From an uncultured Methylococcaceae bacterium (GTDB lineage: Bacteria; Pseudomonadota; Gammaproteobacteria; Methylococcales; Methylococcaceae), in contig CAIWDB010000126.1 of NCBI GenBank assembly GCA_903911305.1, positions 1 through 40,529 on the forward strand: a stretch of 40,529 nt of DNA. Direction: 5' to 3'. This document shows, piece by piece, positions 3,982 to 26,750 of the stretch; position 1 is the first letter of the stretch; each line of letters opens with the position of its first letter. The notes beneath the pieces are model-generated. The model had not been told where the DNA came from. It made no database searches and worked only from the letters and a program-made list of their open reading frames with translations. The translations under genes were made by a program, and so were the position numbers.

Positions 3982-6900
3982 ATTCTTGAGTCAATTGGCA
4001 GAAAGTTTGAGGCTGGGCGTTGTTCACGCTTCCGACCGGCTGTGGGTATTAATACCTGATTGGCTGTTGCTGGTATTCTTGCTCATGTTAGGTTTGAGCT
4101 TTGCATTGTTGCAAGCAAAGCGAACGCGAACGGAATTGTCCCGACAAGAGTTGCAGGAACGTTTTCGCAAGATTTCCAGCCGTGTTCCCGGCGTCGTTTA
4201 TCAATATCGCTTGCGTCCTGACGGCTCGTCCTGTTTCCCTTATGCCAGTGATTGCATACGTGATATATACCGGGTTGATCCTGATGAAGTCAAAGAAGAT
4301 GCCTCAAAAGTATTTGCGATTCTACACCCTGATGATGTAGATGCAGTCACTGAATCCATTTTGGCGTCAGCAAAAACGCTGACGCCTTGGCAATATGAAT
4401 ATCGGGTCAAATTTGACGATGATACCGTGCATTGGTTGTATGGAAATGCTTTACCACAAGCCGAAGCCGATGGCTCGGTATTGTGGCATGGATTTATCAC
4501 GAATATTACTGAACGCAAGCAGATTGAGGAAAAGTTAAGCCAAAGCGAAATCCATTACCGTGGGATTTTTGAAAACTCGGCGGACACGCTACTCGTTATT
4601 GGCATGGATGGCCGAATTATAGATGCCAGCCCTAATTGCATAGTGCTTTATGGTTATGTCCGTTCCGAAATGATCGGTATGGATATAACTGAGCTTATTC
4701 GACGCGATCACCAAAACAAAGTCAAGGAAGGTATGGATGCCGTCACTCAAGGCCAACGCTATTACGTGGAATCGGTTGATCTGAAAAAAGACGGAAGTCT
4801 TGTACCGGTTGATGTGTGCGCTTCGCCATTTAACCACGAAGGTAAACCAGCAATTATATGTTCAATCCGTGATATTTCGGAGCGAAAAAAAACAGAAGAG
4901 TTACTGCACAAAAGCCAAGAATTGTTTTCTCTATTTATGCGCTACTCGCCCATTTATGCATTTATAAAGGAAGTGACATCTACGGAAAGCCGGGTTATCC
5001 AAGCCAGTGAAAATTTTCAGCAGATGATCGGTATTTCGGCTTCGGATATGAAGGGAAAGAATATGTATGAGCTTTTCCCTGGCGAATTAGCTGAGAAGAT
5101 TTCGGCAAACGACTGGACCGTTGTCAGTAATGGTGAGGTGCTGAGGCTTGATGAACATTTCAACGGTCGCGACTATTCAACGATCAAATTTCCAATCTTC
5201 CAAGGGAATAGACGTTTGCTGGCGGGTTATAGCATTGACATAACCGATCGCAAACTCATTGAAAATGCGCTGAAAGAGAGCGAACACCGCTTTCGCACAA
5301 TGGCCGATAATGCGCCAGTGTTGATTTGGATTTCCGGTTTGGACAAACTGTGCTTTTTTTTCAACAAAGTCTGGTTGGATTTCACCGGTAGAACTTTGGA
5401 ACAGGAAATGGGCAACGGGTGGGCGGAAGGGATCCATCCAGACGATTTCCAGTATTGTCTGGACATTTATGTGTCTTCCTTTGACGCACGCCGGCCCTTT
5501 TCGATGGAGTACAGGCTACGCCGGTACGATGGTGAGTTTCGCTGGATACTTGACAACGGCGTGCCCCGGTTTGACGAAGATGGGGTTTTTCTGGGCTATA
5601 TCGGGTCTTGCATGGATATAACCGAACTCAAGCAATTGAACCAAAAACTCTCCGAAAGCCAGCAACGTTTGGAGCTGGCTTTGGACGGCGGTGACATGGG
5701 AATGTGGGATTGGCATATACCGAGTGGCAAGGTTCTATTTAATGAACGGTTTTGCAAGATGCTAGGGTATTCTCTTGAAGAAATCGAGCCACATGTCAGC
5801 AGTTGGCAACAACGGGTGCATCCTGACGATTGGCCTGCCATCAATCAATCGTTAGAACCGCATTTGAGAGGGGAATCCCTAGCCTACGAATCCGAACATC
5901 GAATGCGGCATAAGGATGGTCATTGGATATGGGTGCAAGACAGTGGCAAGGTAGTCGAGCGTGACCATGAAGGCAAAGCCCATCGTGTGGTTGGCACACA
6001 TATCGACATTAGCGAGCGCAAGCAAGTCGAGTCCGCTCTGCTTCAGGCTAAGGAGTTTGCCGAGGAAGCGGCCAAGGCCAAGGCAAGTTTCCTAGCTATT
6101 ATGAGTCATGAAATCCGCACACCTTTGAATGCCATCATGGGCATGGCTTACCTTGCCCAGCAGACTCAACTGACACCCCGCCAAAGCAATTATTTGGAAA
6201 AAATCCATTTTTCCGGGCAACATTTACTAGGCATCATTAACGATATTTTAGACTTTTCAAAAATTGAAGCAGGCAAGTTGTCAATCAATTCCACAGACTT
6301 CATTTTGGATAATGTTTTCTCAATCGTTCAGAACATTATGAATGAAAAGATTAGTGCCAAGGGCTTGAAACTTATCGTCAATATCAGTTCTGACGTTCCC
6401 CATGAACTGGTCGGCGACCCACTACGCATAAGCCAAGTGTTGGTCAATTATGTAGGTAATGCGGTTAAGTTCAGCGAATCAGGGGATATCTTATTGTTGG
6501 TCAGTTTGGTCGAAGAGCGTGAACAGGATGTGGTGTTGCGTTTCTCGGTGACGGATCAAGGGATTGGTCTGACGCAGAAACAGCAAAATGTTTTATTCCA
6601 GTCCTTCACTCAAGTGGATATGTCCAACACTCGTTTGTATGGGGGAACCGGTCTAGGTTTGGTTATCAGTAAAAACTTGGCCGAGATGATGAGTGGTACG
6701 GTAGGTGTGGAAAGTGAATTTGGGAAGGGTTCCACTTTTTGGTTTACTGCCCGATTTGGCAGAGGAAGCATTCGTTACAATAACGATACCTACAAGAATG
6801 ACTTTTCCCCGAAGCCTAATTTTTCAGGGACGGTAATGGAGGCTAAGGCAGCTTTGGAAAAATTGGAAATCATCAGCGGCGCTCGGGTTTTGTTAGTGGA

Positions 6901-18173: not shown

Positions 18174-19562
18174 TCATTCTGCCCGCCTAGGATCGAAAGC
18201 ATCCCGCACGGCATCGGCAAACAGGTTTGCCGCCAAAACCAGTGCGAACATGAACACAAAAGCGGCAGACAACGACCACCAAACTACGGGTTCACGGGCC
18301 ATTTCCAACCGGGCGCTATTAATCATGTTTCCCCAGCTTTCTGTAGTTGGGTCCACGCCGATATTCACATAGGATAGGACAGCTTCGGCGAGTACTAAAG
18401 AACTGAAATCCAATGCGACAGAGATTAACACTAGATGAAACACATTCGGCATAATGTGACGGAGCAGTATGGTTGACTGATGGACACCCAAGGCGCGAGC
18501 CGCTTGTACATATTCCATTTCACGCAACTTTAAAGTCTCGGCGCGTAATAATCGACATAATCCTGTCCAACTGGTCAACCCGAGAATCAAGCACAAAAAA
18601 AGCAACCGGAAATCGGCGCGCAGGGCCAGGCTGGCAAATTCATCTTCATGCCTAGCCATATACGCTTGCATTAACAACATCGAAGCGGCAATCAGCAACA
18701 CACCCGGAATGGAGTTCAAGGTGGTATAAATATATTGGATAATATCGTCAACCCAACCGCGAAAATATCCGGCTAGTATGCCTAAAGCCAAAGCCAAGGG
18801 CAAGGTGATAAAGGTCGTCAATGTGCCTATCAACAATCCAGTGCGTATGCTTTTCAGGCTTTGGAAAAACACATCTTCACCGACTTTGTCAGTTCCAAAT
18901 ACATGGTATTTCAAACTCAACTCGCCTAAACCAAAGCTTGCCAATAGCAGAAATAATAATGTGATCAGTATTGCCCGCCAAGGTATTTCTGTCCTGCCTT
19001 TCACAATCTCGGTTGCGTATGGGACAAATTGAAGATTGGATGACTTGGATGTTATTAGCGTCAGTAAAGCCGCAAGTACCAACCATGCGAAAAAACCATC
19101 TCGAAAACCTTTAAATCCGGTTTGTAGAATATCGAGAAATTTCCCGTGTTCGGGATCGGCTAAGTGGGCGCCACCATATAGCAGACGTGGATAGGATCGA
19201 CGGGAAACCCCATCTTCACCGATGACGGTTTCGCGAGCAAAGCCATAACTGGCAAACGGCGCAGAATAAGTCTTTTCAGTGCGTTGCCGCAAAGGATTGG
19301 CCCACCAGTCCAGCAGGCTGATGGCTTCGGTCTTAAATGACCCTTCCCCGGCTTGGCTTTCAGTGGGGTGGAAGTGAATCGAATCGAGGATTGCAAAGCC
19401 AAAATAGAAAATTAACACGGTCAGCGAAACCATCGCGCTTTTGCTTCGCGCCACTTTACGCCAAGGTCGGCGCAAATGTTCTTTGCTGCGGGTGCGGATA
19501 ACCGATGCCGCCAGCATGAGCAACAGAATAAAAAACAGGGTGTCGGTCCAGTAAAATATCAT
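18174..19562 (-). CDS. ABC transporter permease, YejE/DppC-like
   Basis: This 462-residue inner-membrane permease is longer than typical YejE (about 340). A first membrane segment (about 3-20) and a second (about 42-60) precede a large periplasmic loop and another segment. The conserved permease domain lies at about 230-455. It contains GTDKVGEDVF, the EAA-like loop YVQAARALGVHQSTILLRHI that contacts the ATPase, and a C-terminal FADAVRDAFDPRRAE like E. coli YejE. It starts one base after the stop of the upstream permease, so coupling is tight. The N-terminal extension is not explained by the family. Confidence 0.92.
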   Translation of the reverse strand: MIFYWTDTLFFILLLMLAASVIRTRSKEHLRRPWRKVARSKSAMVSLTVLIFYFGFAILDSIHFHPTESQAGEGSFKTEAISLLDWWANPLRQRTEKTYSAPFASYGFARETVIGEDGVSRRSYPRLLYGGAHLADPEHGKFLDILQTGFKGFRDGFFAWLVLAALLTLITSKSSNLQFVPYATEIVKGRTEIPWRAILITLLFLLLASFGLGELSLKYHVFGTDKVGEDVFFQSLKSIRTGLLIGTLTTFITLPLALALGILAGYFRGWVDDIIQYIYTTLNSIPGVLLIAASMLLMQAYMARHEDEFASLALRADFRLLFLCLILGLTSWTGLCRLLRAETLKLREMEYVQAARALGVHQSTILLRHIMPNVFHLVLISVALDFSSLVLAEAVLSYVNIGVDPTTESWGNMINSARLEMAREPVVWWSLSAAFVFMFALVLAANLFADAVRDAFDPRRAE

Positions 19563-19563
19563 G

Positions 19564-20541
19564 TCAATTTAAACGGACGCGGGGGTCAACCAAGGTGTAA
19601 GAAATGTCGGTCAACAGTAGTCCTAAAATGTACAATGCCGAACCTAGGAATACCATGGCCCTGACGATGGCGAAATCTTGTTTGTTAATCGCATCAATCG
19701 TATAGCTGCCCAGACCTGGGATGCTGAAAAAGGATTCGGTAATCAAACTGCCAATAAACAGCAATGGTAGTACCACCACAACTCCGGTCAATATCGGTAT
19801 CATCGCATTTTTCAACACATGGGTGAATAGTACATAGGTTTCACTTAAACCTTTAGCCCGTGCAGTCCGCACATAATCCTTCTCGACCTCTTCCAAAAAT
19901 AAAGTTCGATACCAGCGAACCCCGGAGCCTATGCCGGCGATGACGCTGATAATGACTGGCAAGACCAAGAATTTCAGTGCATTCCAGCCTAAATCATACC
20001 CTGAAATGGGGGTGAGTTGCAGCAACTTACCTATGACGAACTGCCCTCCAATGATATAAAACAGCGAAGAAATGGACATCATCGCCACACACAGTGCCAC
20101 CCCCCAAAACTCCAAATAAGTCATGCGGAAAAACACCAGCATCAAGGCAAGGCTGATATGCACCAGCAAACCAACTAACAGGGAAGGCGCGGCTATTGCT
20201 AGTGAGGGCCACATGCGTTGGCTGATGTCCGCGCCGATGTCTTCGCCGTTGTCTGCCCGGCCAAACCTGAACAAAAACAGCCCGACTGATTTTTGATAAA
20301 AAATCGTCTCGGTGAATTGCTTGATGCCCTCGGCTTGATCGTTTTTGAATAGGGGCAAATCATAGCCCCGCTCATGTTTCCATTTTGTCATGGCTTCGAC
20401 GGTGACATGCTTCATCCCTAAATGCATACGCGCCATGTCGTCGGGACTGTTGACGACAAAGAACAGCACGAAGGTAAGAATATTCACGCCGATCAATAAA
20501 GGCACGGCGTATAAAATGCGACGGATGAGGTATTGGATCAT
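19564..20541 (-). CDS. ABC transporter permease, YejB/DppB-like
   Basis: This 325-residue permease begins with the family signature MIQYLIRRILYAVPLLIGVN. It has six predicted helices, the EAA loop (VRTARAKGLSETYVLFTHVL) and the C-terminus TDISYTLVDPRVRLN, as in DppB/YejB proteins. It pairs with the permease at 18.2-19.6 kb. Its substrate-binding partner is probably the lipoprotein at 24.3-26.5 kb, separated from it by an island of unrelated genes. The first periplasmic loop is shorter than in E. coli YejB. Confidence 0.93.
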   Translation of the reverse strand: MIQYLIRRILYAVPLLIGVNILTFVLFFVVNSPDDMARMHLGMKHVTVEAMTKWKHERGYDLPLFKNDQAEGIKQFTETIFYQKSVGLFLFRFGRADNGEDIGADISQRMWPSLAIAAPSLLVGLLVHISLALMLVFFRMTYLEFWGVALCVAMMSISSLFYIIGGQFVIGKLLQLTPISGYDLGWNALKFLVLPVIISVIAGIGSGVRWYRTLFLEEVEKDYVRTARAKGLSETYVLFTHVLKNAMIPILTGVVVVLPLLFIGSLITESFFSIPGLGSYTIDAINKQDFAIVRAMVFLGSALYILGLLLTDISYTLVDPRVRLN

Positions 20542-20584: not shown

Positions 20585-20884
20585 TCAAGATAAACGTCTT
20601 ATCCATTTACTCGGACTACTTGCAGTATGGAATACAGCATAGACAATTACTTGATTCCTTGAGTATTCGTAGAAAATCGCATATGGAAATCTTCGAGGCA
20701 AAGCCCTGCGATAATCATCAAATAGTTTTGAGTAGAGCAGAGGATTGCGGCGAATTTTCTCAAAGCAGGCTTCTACACAAGATAAAAACTCCTCTCCTAA
20801 TCCAGATCTATTTAATTCATACCAACCGTAGGTTTCAGCCATATCTTGCCTAGCTTCTTTTGTAATTATTAATTCAGCGAGCAT
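20585..20884 (-). CDS. ParE/RelE superfamily toxin
   Basis: This 99-residue protein matches the ParE/RelE fold. It has a helical N-terminus (ITKEARQDMAETYGWYEL), FEKIRRNPLLYSKLF, and the core strands RRALPRRFPYAIFYEYSRNQVIVYAVFHTASSPSKW. These toxins act on gyrase (ParE) or ribosome-bound mRNA (RelE), and sequence alone cannot decide which. The start overlaps the antitoxin gene by 11 bases. The gene ends 43 bases before the yejB-like permease start. Confidence 0.9.
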   Translation of the reverse strand: MLAELIITKEARQDMAETYGWYELNRSGLGEEFLSCVEACFEKIRRNPLLYSKLFDDYRRALPRRFPYAIFYEYSRNQVIVYAVFHTASSPSKWIRRLS

Positions 20885-21098: not shown

Positions 21099-21140
21099 TA
21101 TTTATCTCCTCAAGTTATTAAATATGAGTTTTTCTGTTTA

Positions 21141-21163
21141 CCTCGCTCCAGCGAGGGAACGAT
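21141..21163. repeat. hairpin repeat, copy 1 (CGCTCCAGCG core)
   Basis: The sequence CCTCGCTCCAGCGAGGGAAC folds into a hairpin with an 8-bp stem (CCTCGCT with AGCGAGG) around the centre. It closely resembles the copies at 21501-21525 and 24070-24087. It lies between the toxin-antitoxin genes and the UPF0175-like gene. Such repeats are scattered in many gammaproteobacterial genomes. Confidence 0.6.
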
Positions 21164-21192: not shown

Positions 21193-21447
21193 TCATTGGT
21201 GGTTAAGAATATTTTCCACGCTTTCCATGTCTTCAAGTACAGTTTGATCGGCAAGCTTGAAACCAGAGTCAAAATGTTCTTGTAAACGTGATATAAACGC
21301 ATCAAAACTGAGGTCGGATAATGCCGCCGCCGCAGTGAAGCTGATTTTGTGTGAATGGTACAAACTCGCGGCGAGAAAAAAACTAGCTGCTTGGTTTCCA
21401 AGAGGCTCAAATACTTCGTAAAATTCGTTTTTCACTTCTAGATTCAT
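21193..21447 (-). CDS. UPF0175-like small protein, possible antitoxin
   Basis: This 84-residue protein has a central ASLYHSHKISFTAAAALSDL helix-turn-helix-like pattern. It resembles UPF0175 proteins, which often accompany PIN-domain toxins. No toxin gene is adjacent: the neighbours are the ParE/RelE pair (downstream in transcription) and the Toprim gene (upstream). It may be an orphan remnant or a regulator of the island. I am confident it is a gene, less so of the family. Confidence 0.55.
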   Translation of the reverse strand: MNLEVKNEFYEVFEPLGNQAASFFLAASLYHSHKISFTAAAALSDLSFDAFISRLQEHFDSGFKLADQTVLEDMESVENILNHQ

Positions 21448-21500
21448 ATAATTTACTTCTAGCTTACTGTTACGCGGCGATGGAACTCCAAGGTATTCAT

Positions 21501-21525
21501 TCCTACGCTGGAGCGTGGGAACGAC
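21501..21525. repeat. hairpin repeat, copy 2 (CGCTGGAGCG core)
   Basis: The sequence TCCTACGCTGGAGCGTGGGA is an inverted-orientation relative of the repeat at 21141-21163, with the same GGGAACGA flank. It separates the UPF0175-like gene from the Toprim gene and ends 17 bases before the Toprim stop codon. Confidence 0.6.
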
Positions 21526-21541
21526 AGCAAAGCTTAATATA

Positions 21542-22189
21542 TCAGTGTTGTGGCAGCGAGTCTAAAAATAGGGCTAAGCTTTGTTGGTGCTGTTTTGCTT
21601 TTACAAGTACTTTTGGTTTGCGAAATTGACTGCTTAAATTATCATAAGGTCTATATTCTTTTTTGTATTCTATGCCATGTCGATTGGCATCCCTTTCCAA
21701 TTGTTTTGAACAGTTTTTCATTTTACTAGAATGCGTGTTAGATTTAGCGTACAGAGGAAGTAACCAACATTCCAAGGAATGCACAGATATGGCAAATTTG
21801 AACTGACTTTTATATTGTTGATAGCTGACTTGATCGATATGGGATATAATTTTATTGCGAACATCATCAACTAAATCCTCGACCCGTCGGTCTATACCAT
21901 CATGGGTAAGGGGAATACCAAAATTGACATGTTCGCCCATGTCGGTATCAATTTGAATGATGACATAATCATTTTCCATATAGATATCGTCAAAGTTTGC
22001 GTACTTACAAAATTCGAATACTAGTTCCCAATTGCCAAAAGACTCTGCTTGTACTCGGTTTGAATCAGTCGCATCATATAGTGGTTGTAATCCATTGACT
22101 TCGACATCACTTCCATATATTCCAATTAGAATATTTCGCAAAACAGCTTGATCGGTTTTTCCTTCAGTGATAAGAGCAAAGCTAACCAT
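21542..22189 (-). CDS. Toprim-like protein paired with AAA ATPase
   Basis: This 215-residue soluble protein has a Toprim-type signature. ALITEGKTDQAVLRNIL carries the early Glu (E9) and Gly. About 70 residues later comes YVIIQIDTDMGEHV, with the D81-x-D83 pair. Toprim domains of this sort act as metal-dependent nucleases in OLD, RNase M5 and PARIS AriB proteins. The C-terminal half (SVHSLECWLLPLYA, then FRKPKVLVKAKQH) has no known domain. The gene starts two bases after the AAA ATPase stop, so the products probably form one complex. Nuclease activity is inferred from motif and pairing. The family (DUF4435-like or DUF4276-like) is unresolved by eye. Confidence 0.7.
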   Translation of the reverse strand: MVSFALITEGKTDQAVLRNILIGIYGSDVEVNGLQPLYDATDSNRVQAESFGNWELVFEFCKYANFDDIYMENDYVIIQIDTDMGEHVNFGIPLTHDGIDRRVEDLVDDVRNKIISHIDQVSYQQYKSQFKFAISVHSLECWLLPLYAKSNTHSSKMKNCSKQLERDANRHGIEYKKEYRPYDNLSSQFRKPKVLVKAKQHQQSLALFLDSLPQH

Positions 22190-22191
22190 AT

Positions 22192-23391
22192 TTAAAATTC
22201 CTTTGGCAAACCGCCTAAAATGCCGCGCAAGAACATTTCAGAAAGCCTAGTCGGGCGTTCACCTACTGGTGTCTTTCTTTTACTGATACGCTTCATCCTT
22301 GTTGCGCCATTTGCATTTCTCGATATCACAAACAAACGCTGTTCGTCATCATCAAGGTTCAACCCGTCTAGTATTGCCGGATTATGGGTGGTTAAAATGA
22401 CTTGCTTATCATGTTTTTGAGCAAGTCTGACCAATTCAAGCATCAGCTTTTCGCAGAGCTTAGGATTCAACGAAGCATCAATATTGTCAATGGCGAAAAA
22501 CTTGGGTGTCAGCTCGGTGGAGAACAGAGCAAAATAGAACAGCAAAAACAAAAATCCTTCATTGGTGCTTAACTGACCAAAATATTGTTGGTCTTTTTCC
22601 AAGTAGCGGTCTTTGATTTCGATCCGATTCCCTTCAATCGGGTCAGTATTGGTTATCCGCATGTCTCCAAACCAGCCTAAAACCTGTAGGGAATCCTTGA
22701 GTTCCGAAAAAGTTTCGGCGTATTCATGGCTTGATAATACTGAAAGCAATTTGAGCAATCCTTCCCCGTTGATGCCGAGCGGTTCTATTTGGCCTTCGCG
22801 TTGGAAAGTTCGTAAAGCAGAGACTTCTGGAGAAAAAATTAAAAAGCCTTCAATGTATTGGTGAGGTAACAAATCATTTTTTATTTTTTTTATTTCATGT
22901 AGACTTGTGATTAATAAGTTTAGCTTTTCGATTATATTTATTGAATATTTATCAGTATCCTTAAAATTTTTGATGAATCCCTCTATGTCATCAATGTAAT
23001 CATCATTGATTTCTAGTTTCATCTTATCATGAATTTTTTTTCTAGTTTCGGCAGCCGGGTCAACCCATTTTGAATATGGCGTGTTGTTATTTTCTAGTTC
23101 ATATAAATGCAAATCAGATGTGTTGGAATCAAGAGCTATTGAAATTTTGTTCATCGGATTAAACCCCGGAAATGCGGGTCGCATGTAATCCGGTCGAGTT
23201 ACCCGTATACCACGGGAGACTAAAAACTCATTATCCAATTTGTCTTTTGCCGCCGCTCCGGCCAGGGCAATGGCCTCAAGGATATTGCTTTTTCCTGCTC
23301 CATTTTCGCCAATCAAGACATTAATGCGCCCAAGTTCAAACTCTAGCGTATCAATGGATTTGTAGTTTTCTATATGAATTTTTTTAATCAC
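22192..23391 (-). CDS. AAA ATPase (OLD/AAA_21-like) of a two-gene module
   Basis: This 399-residue ATPase has IHIENYKSIDTLEFELGRIN followed by Walker A at residues 28-35 (GENGAGKS). A middle region is rich in Lys/Asp. Walker B at about residue 300 reads FFAIDNIDASLNP, and the H-loop region is VILTTHNPAILDGL. Glu after the Walker B Asp is replaced by Asn, so hydrolysis may use another residue. The layout is that of single-chain SMC-like ATPases in OLD-type and PARIS-type defence systems. It starts with GTG and lies immediately upstream of the Toprim gene. The AT-rich stretch near 22.9 kb suggests recent acquisition. Confidence 0.88.
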   Translation of the reverse strand: MIKKIHIENYKSIDTLEFELGRINVLIGENGAGKSNILEAIALAGAAAKDKLDNEFLVSRGIRVTRPDYMRPAFPGFNPMNKISIALDSNTSDLHLYELENNNTPYSKWVDPAAETRKKIHDKMKLEINDDYIDDIEGFIKNFKDTDKYSINIIEKLNLLITSLHEIKKIKNDLLPHQYIEGFLIFSPEVSALRTFQREGQIEPLGINGEGLLKLLSVLSSHEYAETFSELKDSLQVLGWFGDMRITNTDPIEGNRIEIKDRYLEKDQQYFGQLSTNEGFLFLLFYFALFSTELTPKFFAIDNIDASLNPKLCEKLMLELVRLAQKHDKQVILTTHNPAILDGLNLDDDEQRLFVISRNANGATRMKRISKRKTPVGERPTRLSEMFLRGILGGLPKEF

Positions 23392-23439: not shown

Positions 23440-24051
23440 TTAATTTGTGTTCTCTTTTATCAGTGCCTGTTTCTCTTCAAAATACGTCCTCACATCCTCA
23501 TTCTCCACCCGCGCATATATCTCCTCAACCGGAACCGTCAAGGCTATGGATTCAAACGTGACTTCATCCCCCATGAAATAATGTTTAGATACCCAACCCT
23601 CTGACCTCCGGCAAACTTCGACATCGACAAAATCCTGTTCGATTAATACATATTCTTTCAGCGTAGGTATCGTTTGGTAGGTCATACGCTTGAGCGTTTC
23701 GTCCCTACGCCTGGTTGATTTTGAAAGTACTTCGACAATGATGGTGGGCGATTGGGTGAAGTAGTCTGAAGACAAATCATCTAGGCAAACCACGGTCACA
23801 TCAGGATAGAAATATTTCGTACCGACTTTCACTTTCATGTCAGAAGTGAAAGGTTCGCAATGAGCATTTTTTAAATGGGTTCGAATTTCGCCATACAAAT
23901 TTCCGGCAATCCGATCATGGTTCTTGCTGGCACCGGACATGGCATAGACATAGCCATCAATATATTCATGCTTGATCTCACTAGTGAGTTCTGCTTTGAG
24001 ATATTCTTCTTCGGTGATAAATGGGCTTTGTTCTTTAAAGTTTGCTGACAT
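23440..24051 (-). CDS. Uma2-family (DUF820) PD-(D/E)XK protein
   Basis: This 203-residue protein matches the Uma2 family (PF05685), with ITEEEYLKAELTSEIKHEYIDG and MSGASKNHDRIAGNL. The restriction-fold core has D84 in YFYPDVTVVCL, E107 and K111 in TIIVEVLSKSTRRRD. Uma2 proteins are abundant in cyanobacteria and some proteobacteria; their physiological role is unsettled. The ATG at 24051 has GGAAG a few bases upstream. A longer open frame to 24210 exists, but its extra 53 codons run through a repeat element and are not family-like. The gene lies 48 bases before the AAA ATPase gene. Confidence 0.88.
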   Translation of the reverse strand: MSANFKEQSPFITEEEYLKAELTSEIKHEYIDGYVYAMSGASKNHDRIAGNLYGEIRTHLKNAHCEPFTSDMKVKVGTKYFYPDVTVVCLDDLSSDYFTQSPTIIVEVLSKSTRRRDETLKRMTYQTIPTLKEYVLIEQDFVDVEVCRRSEGWVSKHYFMGDEVTFESIALTVPVEEIYARVENEDVRTYFEEKQALIKENTN

Positions 24052-24069
24052 GGTTATCTTCCAGTTTTT

Positions 24070-24297
24070 GGTTCCCACGCTGGAGCGCTCATCGTTATAC
24101 ACAAGTCGCGCCGATGAAAATATGCCGTCATTCCAGCAAGGATGCAGGAATCTAGTGCCATGGACGGTAGCTTCCCGTTGCGTAAGTGCTTGATCCAAGG
24201 TACGCACCAACCCGAAGATTCACCTCCCTGTGACTGGATTCCGGCAATCCATGCCGGAATGACGAGCTTCGACCAATTGTGTATAACGATGAGCGCT
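24070..24297. repeat. repeat block with perfect 21-bp inverted repeats (MITE-like)
   Basis: A third hairpin-type repeat copy (GGTTCCCACGCTGGAGCG) covers about 24070-24087. Starting at 24084, a perfect 21-bp inverted repeat frames a 214-bp element: the left arm is 24084-24104 and the right arm 24277-24297. Each arm contains GCGCTCATCGTTATACACAA or its complement. Inside are two copies of a GTCATTCC/GGAATGAC dispersed repeat (near 24126 and 24233-24262). It has no believable coding capacity. It separates the Uma2 gene from the 3' end of the binding-protein gene. Confidence 0.7.
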
Positions 24298-24320: not shown

Positions 24321-26519
24321 TCACAACGCCGTTCCCCGCTGCCGCTTCCGGTAACTCATCCACGCCGGCATTATCACTAAAATCAATATAACCAAGCCCA
24401 CCAGCAAAGGCCAATAAATCGGTTTGTTCCATTCCGCCCGTTGCTTTGCCCTTTCAATGGCATCGATGCGTTGGTATTTGGTGCGGTTTCTCGCCATTGA
24501 GTTGGGTGCGATGTTTTTGTACCAGTCATGATACAAAGCGAACTTCATCGGATAATAACCAAACAGCCATGGCGAATCCTTGCGAACAATGTCCTGCATT
24601 TGTTCGATGATCGCTTGGCGTTCCGGGCCGTCATCCATGTTTCTCATACGCTCAAACAACTGGTCAAACTCAGGGTTCTTATAATTTGATGCATTTTCCC
24701 CGCCCGCGCCGACTTTTGCATTAGGCCCATTGAGCAGGAAGAAGAAGTTTTCCGGGTCTGGGTAGTCGGCATTCCAACCCCAGGTATACAATTGCATGTT
24801 ACCGGATGCAATTTTTTGCTGGAACTGATTATAATCGGTGGTGCGTAACACTAATTGGATGCCCAGTTTGGCAAATTGCTTGCGATACCAGTTTAACGAG
24901 GATTTACTGTCTGCACCGGCTGCTGTGACATCATAATATAACACCAAGGGCTTGCCAGTCTTCTCGTCCACACCATTAGGGTAACCCGCTTCTGCCAACA
25001 ATTTCTTGGCTTCGTCCAAGGATTTTCGTTTTGGCCTACCATTTTTCCAGTCAAACACATAAGGGTTGATGCCTGCCTCGCCTTCTTGGTAGCCAAAGAT
25101 TCCCGGCGGCAAAACACCTTGTGCAACAATGCCACGTCCATTGGCAAAAATACTGATGAATTCGTCATAATCTACCGCGATGGCAATAGCGCGGCGCAAT
25201 TTGCTTTGGGCTTCACCATATCCACCGACAACAGGATCGAGCATATTGAAGCCCATATAAAAGATCGAGGCTTCCACTTCCGTATCCAGCCTGATGTTTT
25301 TGGCCTTCATTTCAGGAGTCAGTTCAGGCCCGCCTTGACCGGCAAAACTGATGGCTTGGTCGAAGTTGTCTGAGGACAAGCCGGATGCATCGAAATAACC
25401 TTGCTGAAACTTATTCCAGTAGGGAATTGTTTCCTTTTCAAGTATGGAAACCACTTTGTCGATGAAAGGGAGCTTCTTTCCTGCATCTTTCAACAGACCT
25501 TCTTTGGCATCTTCAGGTGAACCGACACTGGGGTAAAAATCGTCATGATAGTTTGGGTTTTTTGCCAACACTATTCTGCGATTTGGGTTGTTCTCCTCCA
25601 TCAAGTAAGGGCCAGTACCGACTGGATACCAGTCTAGGGAAATGTTTTTAGCGATGAGTCCCTTTTGTTTGTAAAACTGGTCCGCTTCCCATGGCACCGG
25701 AGAGAAAAACGTCATCGCTAGCCAATTACGGAATTGCGGATATTTGCCGATGAGCCGAATTTTGAAATGATGCGGGTCGATGACTGTCACACCTTCCAAT
25801 GGATACTCTCGCATATCAAAGAAAGCCGATTTATCGGTACTGGATTTAAAGTCTTTTTCTACCTGTTCGGATAATGCCTTCAAACCGAGTATGTGATCCT
25901 GCATCAAATCGCCAATGGGCGAATGCAATTGCGGATGAACCAGTCGTTTGATGCCATAAAGATAATCGTCGGCAGTGAGTTCGCGGAAGCCTGTTTCTGG
26001 AAAATCGGCAATAGTTTTGATGTTTGCCAAAGCTTCGGCTGTCAGGTCATGGTAGCGAAACTGATTGTCTTGAGTCTTTGCAAAAGCGGGGTGTGGCTGG
26101 TAGCGAATGCCGGGTTTAAGCTGAATATCATATTCGCTAAATGCAATTGATTCGTCAGGCGCGTTTTCTGGCAGGACATTCATGTCACGGTCATAGTAAA
26201 TCACCTTAGGCATTTCCAATGCCGTTAAGGGTTCCAGCGTAAAGGGTTTTTTCAGGTAACTGTATTGCAGCAAAGGTTCGTAAATTTGCGCGATATAGCG
26301 TGCTTCGTCTTCACTATAGGATCGGGCTGGATCGAGATGCTTGGGTCTTTCAGAAAAAGCGGTGTACAGGATGTTTTGTTCAGCCTGATTTTCGGGATAG
26401 GGGTCGTTGGGTGGCTGTTCGCCGCATCCGCTTATCAAAAAGCTTAACCAGCACAGTCCAAAGAAATAAAGGATCAAGCCGGAGGTGTTGAATGGATGGT
26501 TTGCGATGGTTCTTAGCAT
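24321..26519 (-). CDS. family-5 extracellular solute-binding lipoprotein
   Basis: This 732-residue protein matches the OppA/DppA/YejA-type binding family. The mature part has SERPKHLDPARSYSEDEARY near the start, the long LTADDYLYGIKRLVHPQ, VGTGPYLMEENNPNRRIVLAKNPNYH and DYPDPENFFFLLNG near the end. The N-terminal signal ends in LISGC, a lipobox. A hydrophobic stretch at about residues 700-720 (IYWPLLVGLVILILVIMPA) followed by KRQRGT predicts a C-terminal membrane anchor, unusual for this family. The ATG at 26519 is preferred to a TTG at 26546 because the signal peptide then starts at once. It is separated from the two permeases by the 20.6-24.3 kb island and probably serves them. Confidence 0.92.
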   Translation of the reverse strand: MLRTIANHPFNTSGLILYFFGLCWLSFLISGCGEQPPNDPYPENQAEQNILYTAFSERPKHLDPARSYSEDEARYIAQIYEPLLQYSYLKKPFTLEPLTALEMPKVIYYDRDMNVLPENAPDESIAFSEYDIQLKPGIRYQPHPAFAKTQDNQFRYHDLTAEALANIKTIADFPETGFRELTADDYLYGIKRLVHPQLHSPIGDLMQDHILGLKALSEQVEKDFKSSTDKSAFFDMREYPLEGVTVIDPHHFKIRLIGKYPQFRNWLAMTFFSPVPWEADQFYKQKGLIAKNISLDWYPVGTGPYLMEENNPNRRIVLAKNPNYHDDFYPSVGSPEDAKEGLLKDAGKKLPFIDKVVSILEKETIPYWNKFQQGYFDASGLSSDNFDQAISFAGQGGPELTPEMKAKNIRLDTEVEASIFYMGFNMLDPVVGGYGEAQSKLRRAIAIAVDYDEFISIFANGRGIVAQGVLPPGIFGYQEGEAGINPYVFDWKNGRPKRKSLDEAKKLLAEAGYPNGVDEKTGKPLVLYYDVTAAGADSKSSLNWYRKQFAKLGIQLVLRTTDYNQFQQKIASGNMQLYTWGWNADYPDPENFFFLLNGPNAKVGAGGENASNYKNPEFDQLFERMRNMDDGPERQAIIEQMQDIVRKDSPWLFGYYPMKFALYHDWYKNIAPNSMARNRTKYQRIDAIERAKQRAEWNKPIYWPLLVGLVILILVIMPAWMSYRKRQRGTAL

Positions 26520-26750
26520 AGTGGATTGACGGTGATTAAGCCTCAATTAAACCTCAGCATCATGTTTGATATGGACGGTTTAATGCCCTCGTCAGATTTT
26601 ATAACAGTTTAAGCCGTTCTTCTGATTGTTGGTGTTTCAAGTATAAATAGTCTACATTTACCAAAAGACTAATTTCGCCAACCACTCAGTATTGCAACTG
26701 TAACGTGAATGGTGGCGAAATAGTGTAGATAAATCAGATGAGGTTGTCTC

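Follow-up and report, generated by a model that had tools for sequence, protein, structure and literature searches.

The window, a stretch of 40,529 nucleotides from an uncultured Methylococcaceae bacterium (contig CAIWDB010000126.1), contains on its reverse strand a two-gene unit (21542-23391) that encodes an ABC-type ATPase (gene A) and a Toprim-type protein (gene B). With moderate confidence, and by analogy with characterised ATPase-Toprim systems, this pair may be read as a mobile anti-phage cassette of the abortive-infection type, in which a Toprim nuclease is kept under guard. The new point, taken from sequence alignments, is that the Walker-B catalytic glutamate of the PDC-M31A clade, to which A belongs, is replaced by asparagine, while the nucleotide-binding core is kept. 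The unit and its motifs are as follows.

22192-23391, reverse strand: gene A, open reading frame (ORF) 23391..22192, GTG start, 399 residues; ABC-type ATPase (PADLOC PDC-M31A) by profile matches, model and structural matches
23287-23310, reverse strand: Walker A motif GENGAGKS of A, residues 28-35, part of the conserved core
22477-22488, reverse strand: Walker B motif of A, D302-N303-I304-D305, aligned with Asn at the usual position of the catalytic Glu
22195-22245, reverse strand: conserved C-terminal tail of A, LSEMFLRGILGGLPKEF, a putative contact with B; S384, E385 and G390 occur in 90/90 homologues
21542-22189, reverse strand: gene B, ORF 22189..21542, ATG start, 215 residues; DUF4276/RloB-related Toprim-type protein (PADLOC PDC-M31B) by profiles, model and structural matches
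22151-22165, reverse strand: E9-G-K-T-D13 of B, first acidic motif (putative metal A Glu, and metal B acid four residues later), by conservation and OLD spacing
21941-21949, reverse strand: D81-T-D83 of B, putative DxD metal ligands
21770-21778, reverse strand: S138-L-E140 of B, putative second metal B motif, by conservation and OLD counterpart
21659-21661, reverse strand: K177 of B, candidate counterpart of Bp OLD K562 and GajA K541, its role assigned by analogy

The preliminary description of the locus had reported a GENGAGKS ATPase and, two bases apart from it, a 215-residue partner with an early Glu-Gly and a D-x-D pair. The ORFs bear this out, the two motifs being E9-G10 and D81-T-D83 and the spacing positions 22190-22191. 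In PADLOC-DB, A matches PDC-M31A (1.1e-73, 246.6 bits, residues 1-397) and B matches PDC-M31B (3.8e-9, 34.6 bits). Since both genes match PDC-M31 profiles and are adjacent, the pair is a listed phage defence candidate, membership here being defined by profile matches plus adjacency, separately from PADLOC's own system rule. PDC-M31 has so far been a bare profile name, to which the residue, structure and setting features of the window pair are additional; no paper naming PDC-M31 or DUF4276 was found in the open-access literature. The preprint behind the PADLOC candidates is reportedly that of Payne et al. (bioRxiv, 2024). Passages of two papers treat such candidates as a class awaiting validation (PMC12988326, PMC11514479).

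Relatives of B are encoded on 128 stretches of genome contigs, the best 80 of which were kept, and further loci comprise 11 viral contigs found via B and 20 loci found via A, several of which repeat the viral contigs. Partial or identical rows of either protein were left out of the alignments, and one B row with a frameshifted end (L025) was kept. In the 99 aligned B proteins, E9, D81 and D83 are invariant, D13 is present in 97 (Glu in 2), S138 in 82, E140 in 97 (Asp in 2) and K177 in 98. Order and spacing of E9, D13, D81xD83, S138xE140 and K177, on which the comparison was judged rather than on superposed geometry, resemble those of the OLD two-metal ligands. The metal A ligands of Ts OLD are E377, D431 and D433 and its metal B ligands D381, S478 and E480; Bp OLD uses E400, D455 and D457 for metal A and E404, T506 and E508 for metal B, with K562 as catalytic residue (passages of PMC7049728); the residues given for GajA are E379, E383, D432, D434, D511, D513 and K541 (passages of PMC10822852). 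The acidic pattern of B, together with its model, thus supports its assignment as a predicted OLD-like two-metal Toprim nuclease, in which K177 would be a candidate counterpart of Bp OLD K562 and GajA K541.

The predicted structure of B (pLDDT 94.3, pTM 0.91, from 93 sequences) has as its top VIA-align match PH0156 of Pyrococcus (2p62, Z 8.6). PARIS AriB ranks second (8ux9_A, Z 7.8, root-mean-square deviation 4.2 over 168 residues, 11% identity; 8v46_D, Z 7.0) and is accompanied by the Toprim domains of Bp OLD (6nk8, Z 7.0) and Xcc OLD (Z 5.8), while GajA (Z 5.4) lies amid unrelated alpha/beta folds that begin at 5.5. Sequence searches of solved structures gave a best E of 0.16 with the single protein and 0.39 with the profile, so that the Toprim case for B rests on the residues and the model. 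Among viral structures, Foldseek returned no match at E ≤ 0.001, the best row being an RloB-like protein at E 0.023.

Profile comparisons place B near the DUF4276 and RloB families. Its Pfam match to DUF4276 reaches 21.9 bits over residues 9-190 (cut-off 30.2) and that to RloB 19.1 bits over residues 119-201 (cut-off 31.5), both sub-threshold; these two matches contradict the initial remark that nothing known resembles the C-terminal half. A profile of B aligns to one built from 11 DUF4276 proteins (94.2%, E 1.1e-7, 164 columns) and, locally, to one from 11 RloB proteins (63%, 46 columns), against 0.3% for the control comparison with A. No Pfam match of B to DUF4435 was obtained at E ≤ 1, and PDC-M31B is the only PADLOC profile matched by B at that threshold. 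Of the Pfam families named at first for comparison with B, DUF4276 was recovered below its cut-off and DUF4435 was not.

Gene A encodes an ABC-type ATPase of the AAA_21 (7.7e-20) and AAA_15 (4e-17) Pfam families, which also matches the AriA profile of PADLOC-DB (1.7e-26). Its predicted structure (pLDDT 92.4) is best matched by PtuA of Septu (Z 19.4) and by the heads of SMC proteins, Rad50 heads also being among the best folds; AriA and OLD rows are absent among the 50 structural matches listed, which excludes nothing. In 90 aligned homologues, G28, N30, G31, G33 and K34 of Walker A are invariant, E29 is found in 84, and position 35 is Ser in 74 and Thr in 16. Position 303 is Asn in 88 of these homologues and Ser in the other two, which are similar Acinetobacter plasmid copies; in HMMER alignments, N303 falls opposite the Glu in the DEVD motif of SMC (1e69) and in DEID of the Ec83 retron ATPase. 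The D-loop position of A is likewise Asn. Three more distant relatives (L117, L118 and L128/L157) also carry DN and, by eye, have a Toprim-like partner downstream. It may be inferred that A hydrolyses ATP little or not at all. Its conserved C-terminal tail possibly contacts B.

ATPases near RloB, DUF4276 and DUF4435 genes in the window's class carry the Glu in 27 of 28 cases and Gln in one (L188), a survey that covered 28 readable ATPases from 27 of 30 loci (L178 and L181 being read as Glu); at the other three (L184, L190, L206), no ATPase lies within the stretch examined. In a tree of 56 ATPases, the 30 Asn/Ser rows are split from the 26 Glu rows by one branch (SH-aLRT 96), and a single change therefore suffices for the PDC-M31A clade. 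This tree was built by a quick search with the Walker-B columns left out and without L188, L178 and L181, and it carries long-branch warnings for L179 and L132. No report of Asn in place of the Walker-B Glu in ATPases of the A type was found among the papers listed in searches of the open literature; passages of PMC10853773 describe an Asn Walker B in a different protein, DndF.

Three side observations concern related ATPases. In L188 (253-1468), a DUF4276-associated ATPase outside the PDC-M31A clade has Gln in place of the Walker-B Glu (EQPE), so that loss of the Glu also happened elsewhere and is not unique to this clade. L157 (1035-6217) holds two different ATPase-partner pairs, one with a DN-type ATPase and one with a DE-type ATPase and a DUF4276-like partner, which flank what by eye is an apparent threonine synthase gene. 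The genome of the window itself has two further DUF4276 genes above cut-off on other contigs (L184 and L193), the latter (contig C32) with a normal-Glu ATPase.

The A and B genes are inherited as one unit. A separate A lies directly upstream of B on the same strand at 93 of 98 B ORFs (L007-L103); of the remaining five, four stand at the very start of a contig and one is a fused remnant (L039). Included in the 93 are a few copies of A cut by contig ends, a truncated A (L025) and an A split by a stop (L026), and the 98 include L095 and L096, which are the same sequence; L147, L149 and L150 were not counted besides L013, L014 and L015, nor L155 besides L084. The gap between the two genes ranges from -11 to +23 bases with a median of 1 (n=90). 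Tree distances of A and B correlate at 0.79 (FastTree, 86 loci), a value reached in 0 of 2000 permutations, and in 0 of 2000 when permuted within phyla (highest 0.64). In L077 (4017-7633, a Saprospiraceae contig), two divergent A-B pairs stand in tandem.

The 80 genome loci fall into Cyanobacteriota (26), Bacteroidota (21), Pseudomonadota (19), Campylobacterota (8), Planctomycetota (2) and one each of Thermodesulfobacteriota, Armatimonadota and Myxococcota, with one unassigned, which makes eight named phyla. Conservation of the pair was upheld across genomes, A standing upstream wherever the DNA permits a test, barring the one fused remnant. Within the phylum of the window, the distribution is patchy: when searched for with a single sequence, B turned up in 1 of 398 genomes, the window's own, and 5 of 101 genomes, the own one included, contain a full-length match to the A profile that scores above 500 bits. 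The nearest named records are metagenome-assembled genomes of Methylococcaceae, including Candidatus Methylumidiphilus alinenensis, with B proteins 71, 68 and 62% identical.

Both genes are fast-changing yet under purifying selection. Compared with L013, B has a nonsynonymous divergence (Ka) of 0.195 and a synonymous divergence (Ks) of 0.98 (Ka/Ks 0.20), Ka is 0.015 over the final 117 codons of A, and the neighbouring OppB gene has Ka 0.013 and Ks 0.78; the comparison with L014 gives Ka/Ks ratios of 0.11 (B) and 0.15 (A). Several of the Ks values are near or at saturation, L015 is saturated, and the solute-binding-protein row of L014, being out of frame, was dropped.

The pair is also found on mobile elements. 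B occurs in 7 plasmid records, five of them below 13 kb and six predicted to be mobilizable. In four viral contigs (L099, L101, L103, L114), the pair adjoins a P2-type portal gene, after which come the genes for terminase, scaffold, head and adaptor proteins, and in a fifth contig of P2-like type (L098) B lies at the contig end, about 5 kb from the portal; phage records matching the portal stretch are annotated as 'capsid portal protein Q' and 'terminase ATPase subunit'. Relative to L099, the backbone proteins are 95% (terminase), 95-96% (adaptor), 82-84% (portal), 77-79% (scaffold) and 60% (major head protein) identical, and the pair itself is 93, 59 and 42% (A) and 99, 53 and 31% (B) identical. 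On the P2 map, the portal-adjacent place would correspond to the old locus. According to passages of PMC10568477, the old locus of P2 holds other anti-phage systems. In phage records, the window's B gives no match and the A of a P2-like prophage contig gives a single match, which is partial (49% covered) and lies in a record without annotation; in E. coli genomes, the P2-like prophage pair gives no match.

Among characterised systems, the pair would work most like the PARIS, OLD and RloB/DUF4276 systems, while by profile it belongs to PDC-M31. In PARIS, as in the window, an ABC ATPase and a Toprim effector are encoded by two genes, AriB ranks second among the structural matches of B, and A matches the AriA profile; however, A is far closer to PDC-M31A and is devoid of the catalytic Glu. 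AriB is a DUF4435 protein, and B has no DUF4435 match, on which ground membership in PARIS was rejected. OLD proteins of classes 1-3, including GajA, combine an ABC ATPase with a Toprim domain that carries E-x3-D/E, DxD, (S/T/D)xE/D and a late Lys or Arg, a ligand set that B appears to share. In contrast to OLD, the window pair consists of two chains and the Walker-B Glu of A is absent. A one-chain OLD was rejected on account of the two ORFs in the window and at the 93 homologous B ORFs, and neither a helicase nor a retron partner is seen beside the pair in the window. The initial label of a PARIS-like or split-OLD module thus survives as a working likeness, but not as membership in PARIS or as a one-chain OLD.

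AbiL (AbiLi/AbiLii) and other RloB/DUF4276 pairs have the same general build, and the B profile aligns to DUF4276. They differ in that the RloB similarity of B is local and B scores under both family cut-offs, that the AbiLii profile matches only 3 of the 99 B proteins, whereas all 99 match a PDC-M31B model, and that the linked ATPases almost always keep the Glu that is Asn in A.

For PARIS, passages of PMC12409363 describe an AriA hexamer that sequesters AriB until a phage trigger frees it to cut tRNA, and passages of PMC10440598 report that AAA proteins neutralise TOPRIM_OLD partners in toxicity tests, AAA-TOPRIM pairs of the same general build behaving as toxin-antitoxin pairs in E. coli. 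By analogy with these pairs, A would both guard B and sense infection, with B as the effector. Assembled as a dimer or multimer around ATP, which it would hydrolyse slowly or not at all, A would hold B inactive until it is opened by a phage product or by an altered nucleotide state. B, freed or switched on, could then cut nucleic acid, either tRNA, as AriB does, or DNA, as OLD and GajA do, and the cut would stop the infected cell. In this scheme, the guard probably acts through bound ATP, of which it hydrolyses little. More tentatively, the PDC-M31A clade may have lost its Walker-B Glu once and kept Asn, such that ATP serves as a structural latch and not as fuel; a phage protein or falling ATP would then open the latch and free the nuclease. 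ATPase-plus-Toprim pairs form a broad immune class in which the role of ATP is unsettled, and a clade spread over eight phyla, in which the catalytic Glu is gone and the ATP core and nuclease site are kept, offers a direct test of whether guarding a Toprim effector needs hydrolysis. What was a bare profile name in a catalogue also becomes a system of two genes that can be tested, for which residues, insertion sites and sources on plasmids and prophages are named.

Several results weigh against the proposed anti-phage cassette. A Foldseek search of B against solved structures gave no match at E ≤ 0.001, and its Toprim matches lie at Z 7-8, where the tool warns that values below 8 may reflect a common arrangement; the fold alone is thus no proof, and the residue pattern is the stronger evidence. 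The Toprim type proposed for the partner is supported by model, structural neighbours and full metal-ligand pattern taken together, the fold scores alone being ambiguous. In the open-access literature, no assay of phage resistance or toxicity was found for PDC-M31 pairs. The Pfam families leading among the 150 nearest ORFs are the ordinary neighbours EamA (10) and M28 peptidase (6), and at most 2 of the 150 match any one PADLOC model, where each model matched by the 149 control ORFs was matched by 1. Finally, six broken copies, found in a survey that skipped flags due to contig ends (L013, L016, L076) or differing gene ends (L014, L075, L088), reveal no one-sided loss and no sign that A cannot go first: B only is broken in L071 (and perhaps L082, near a contig end), A only in L026 and L069 (one stop each), and both in L025 and L039. 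In L039 (2005-2739), the first 43 residues of A run in frame into B from about residue 13, the P-loop is altered, and the ATPase body and the first acidic motif of B are missing; a natural A-B fusion was therefore rejected in favour of a deletion remnant.

The neighbour ORFs match 54 PADLOC models at 1e-10 (25 listed, several redundant and one GlgB), versus 6 in the control. The neighbour set comprises the 150 nearest of 492 ORFs from 77 loci (below 900 residues, 74 loci), and the control ORFs were drawn from 20 stretches in three genomes that belong to the same order as the window. As this control is not matched in phylum and models rather than distinct proteins were counted, the enrichment is called weak: chromosomal neighbourhoods are weakly defence-like, and classical defence islands are not the rule. 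The defence setting claimed at first is supported by the P2-like prophages, the plasmids and the PADLOC candidate status, but not by classical islands.

The alternative that survives best, although unlikely, is a stand-alone toxin-antitoxin module for plasmid or locus maintenance, with B as toxin and A as antitoxin and phage defence incidental or absent. The small mobilizable plasmids, the other toxin-antitoxin genes nearby in the window, the ordinary genes often found around the pair, and the behaviour of AAA/TOPRIM pairs in the passages of PMC10440598 are all in line with it. However, the portal-adjacent placement in the four P2-like contigs and the strong allelic turnover suit defence better, and the broken copies do not follow the pattern of an A that cannot be lost first. 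DNA processing or repair of the SMC/RecF kind, in which A clamps DNA and B nicks it in the service of recombination rather than immunity, appears improbable: SMC and Rad50 heads are among the best folds of A, and Toprim domains also occur in repair enzymes (passages of PMC12409363), but the patchy distribution, the mobile settings and the fast protein change, with the Ka of B far above that of OppB, argue against it. That the pair is degraded or regulatory, with A merely binding ATP and B devoid of nuclease activity, is suggested by the missing Glu and the D-loop Asn of A and is hard to reconcile with the invariant E9, D81 and D83 of B, the Walker A core kept in all 90 homologues and the purifying selection on both genes, so that little weight is given to it.

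The proposed guarded-nuclease cassette of the window is set in an interrupted peptide transporter operon, with accompanying cargo on both sides.

24321-26546, reverse strand: upstream half of the interrupted transporter operon, abutting the permease directly in the sister genera L152 and L153; the product is presumably a peptide-ABC solute-binding protein, named by similarity
23440-24051, reverse strand: Uma2-family putative endonuclease, accompanying cargo (Pfam Uma2 7e-31), at the same site in L149, L150 and L151; the ORF is open upstream to 24210, and the start at 24051 was picked by comparison with relatives
21193-21447, reverse strand: UPF0175-like small protein, accompanying cargo (Pfam 21.9 bits, under the cut-off of 27.9), at the site in L147, L149 and L150
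20874-21098, reverse strand: addiction-module component, accompanying cargo (Pfam 4.8e-17), varying among relatives
20585-20884, reverse strand: ParE-type toxin, accompanying cargo (Pfam 1.3e-9), varying among relatives
18174-20541, reverse strand: downstream half of the interrupted transporter operon by locus comparison, permeases that we take to be OppB- and OppC-like

The Uma2 nuclease and toxin-antitoxin pair noted in the surroundings were recovered by Pfam at these places. In the genus of the window, the pair is inserted between the solute-binding-protein gene and the permease of the transporter (L149, L150), together with varying sets of Uma2, UPF0175-like protein and addiction pair; the contig of L147 stops inside A. 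In sister genera, the transporter genes touch at two of three loci (L152, L153), and L154 has a TPR gene there. No pair is seen at the site in two other genomes of the same genus: in L151, Uma2 is present and the solute-binding gene was not found there, and the contig of L148 runs out roughly 1 kb above the permease. In L148, the ORF that lies upstream of the permease at this site (4739-5275, reverse strand) resembles, by eye, a transposase of the IS200 type associated with repetitive extragenic palindromes (REPs). The insert of L149 (7565-8727) has two extra ORFs, which by eye are nuclease-like (222 residues) and RusA-like (165 residues).

A promoter scan stayed at shuffle level (12 vs 9.9, standard deviation 3.4), and a terminator scan was slightly above it (7 vs 3.7, standard deviation 2.3). 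Where the Uma2 cargo borders on the solute-binding-protein gene, a perfect inverted repeat of 21 nt (24084-24104 and 24277-24297, arms 172 nt apart) looks like a small element of the miniature inverted-repeat transposable type. REP-like palindromes with the core GCTGGAGCG lie between the cargo genes at 21138-21162, 21497-21524 and 24058-24087, and a 21-nt stretch of the one at 21497-21524 is found four times in the genome with at most one mismatch.

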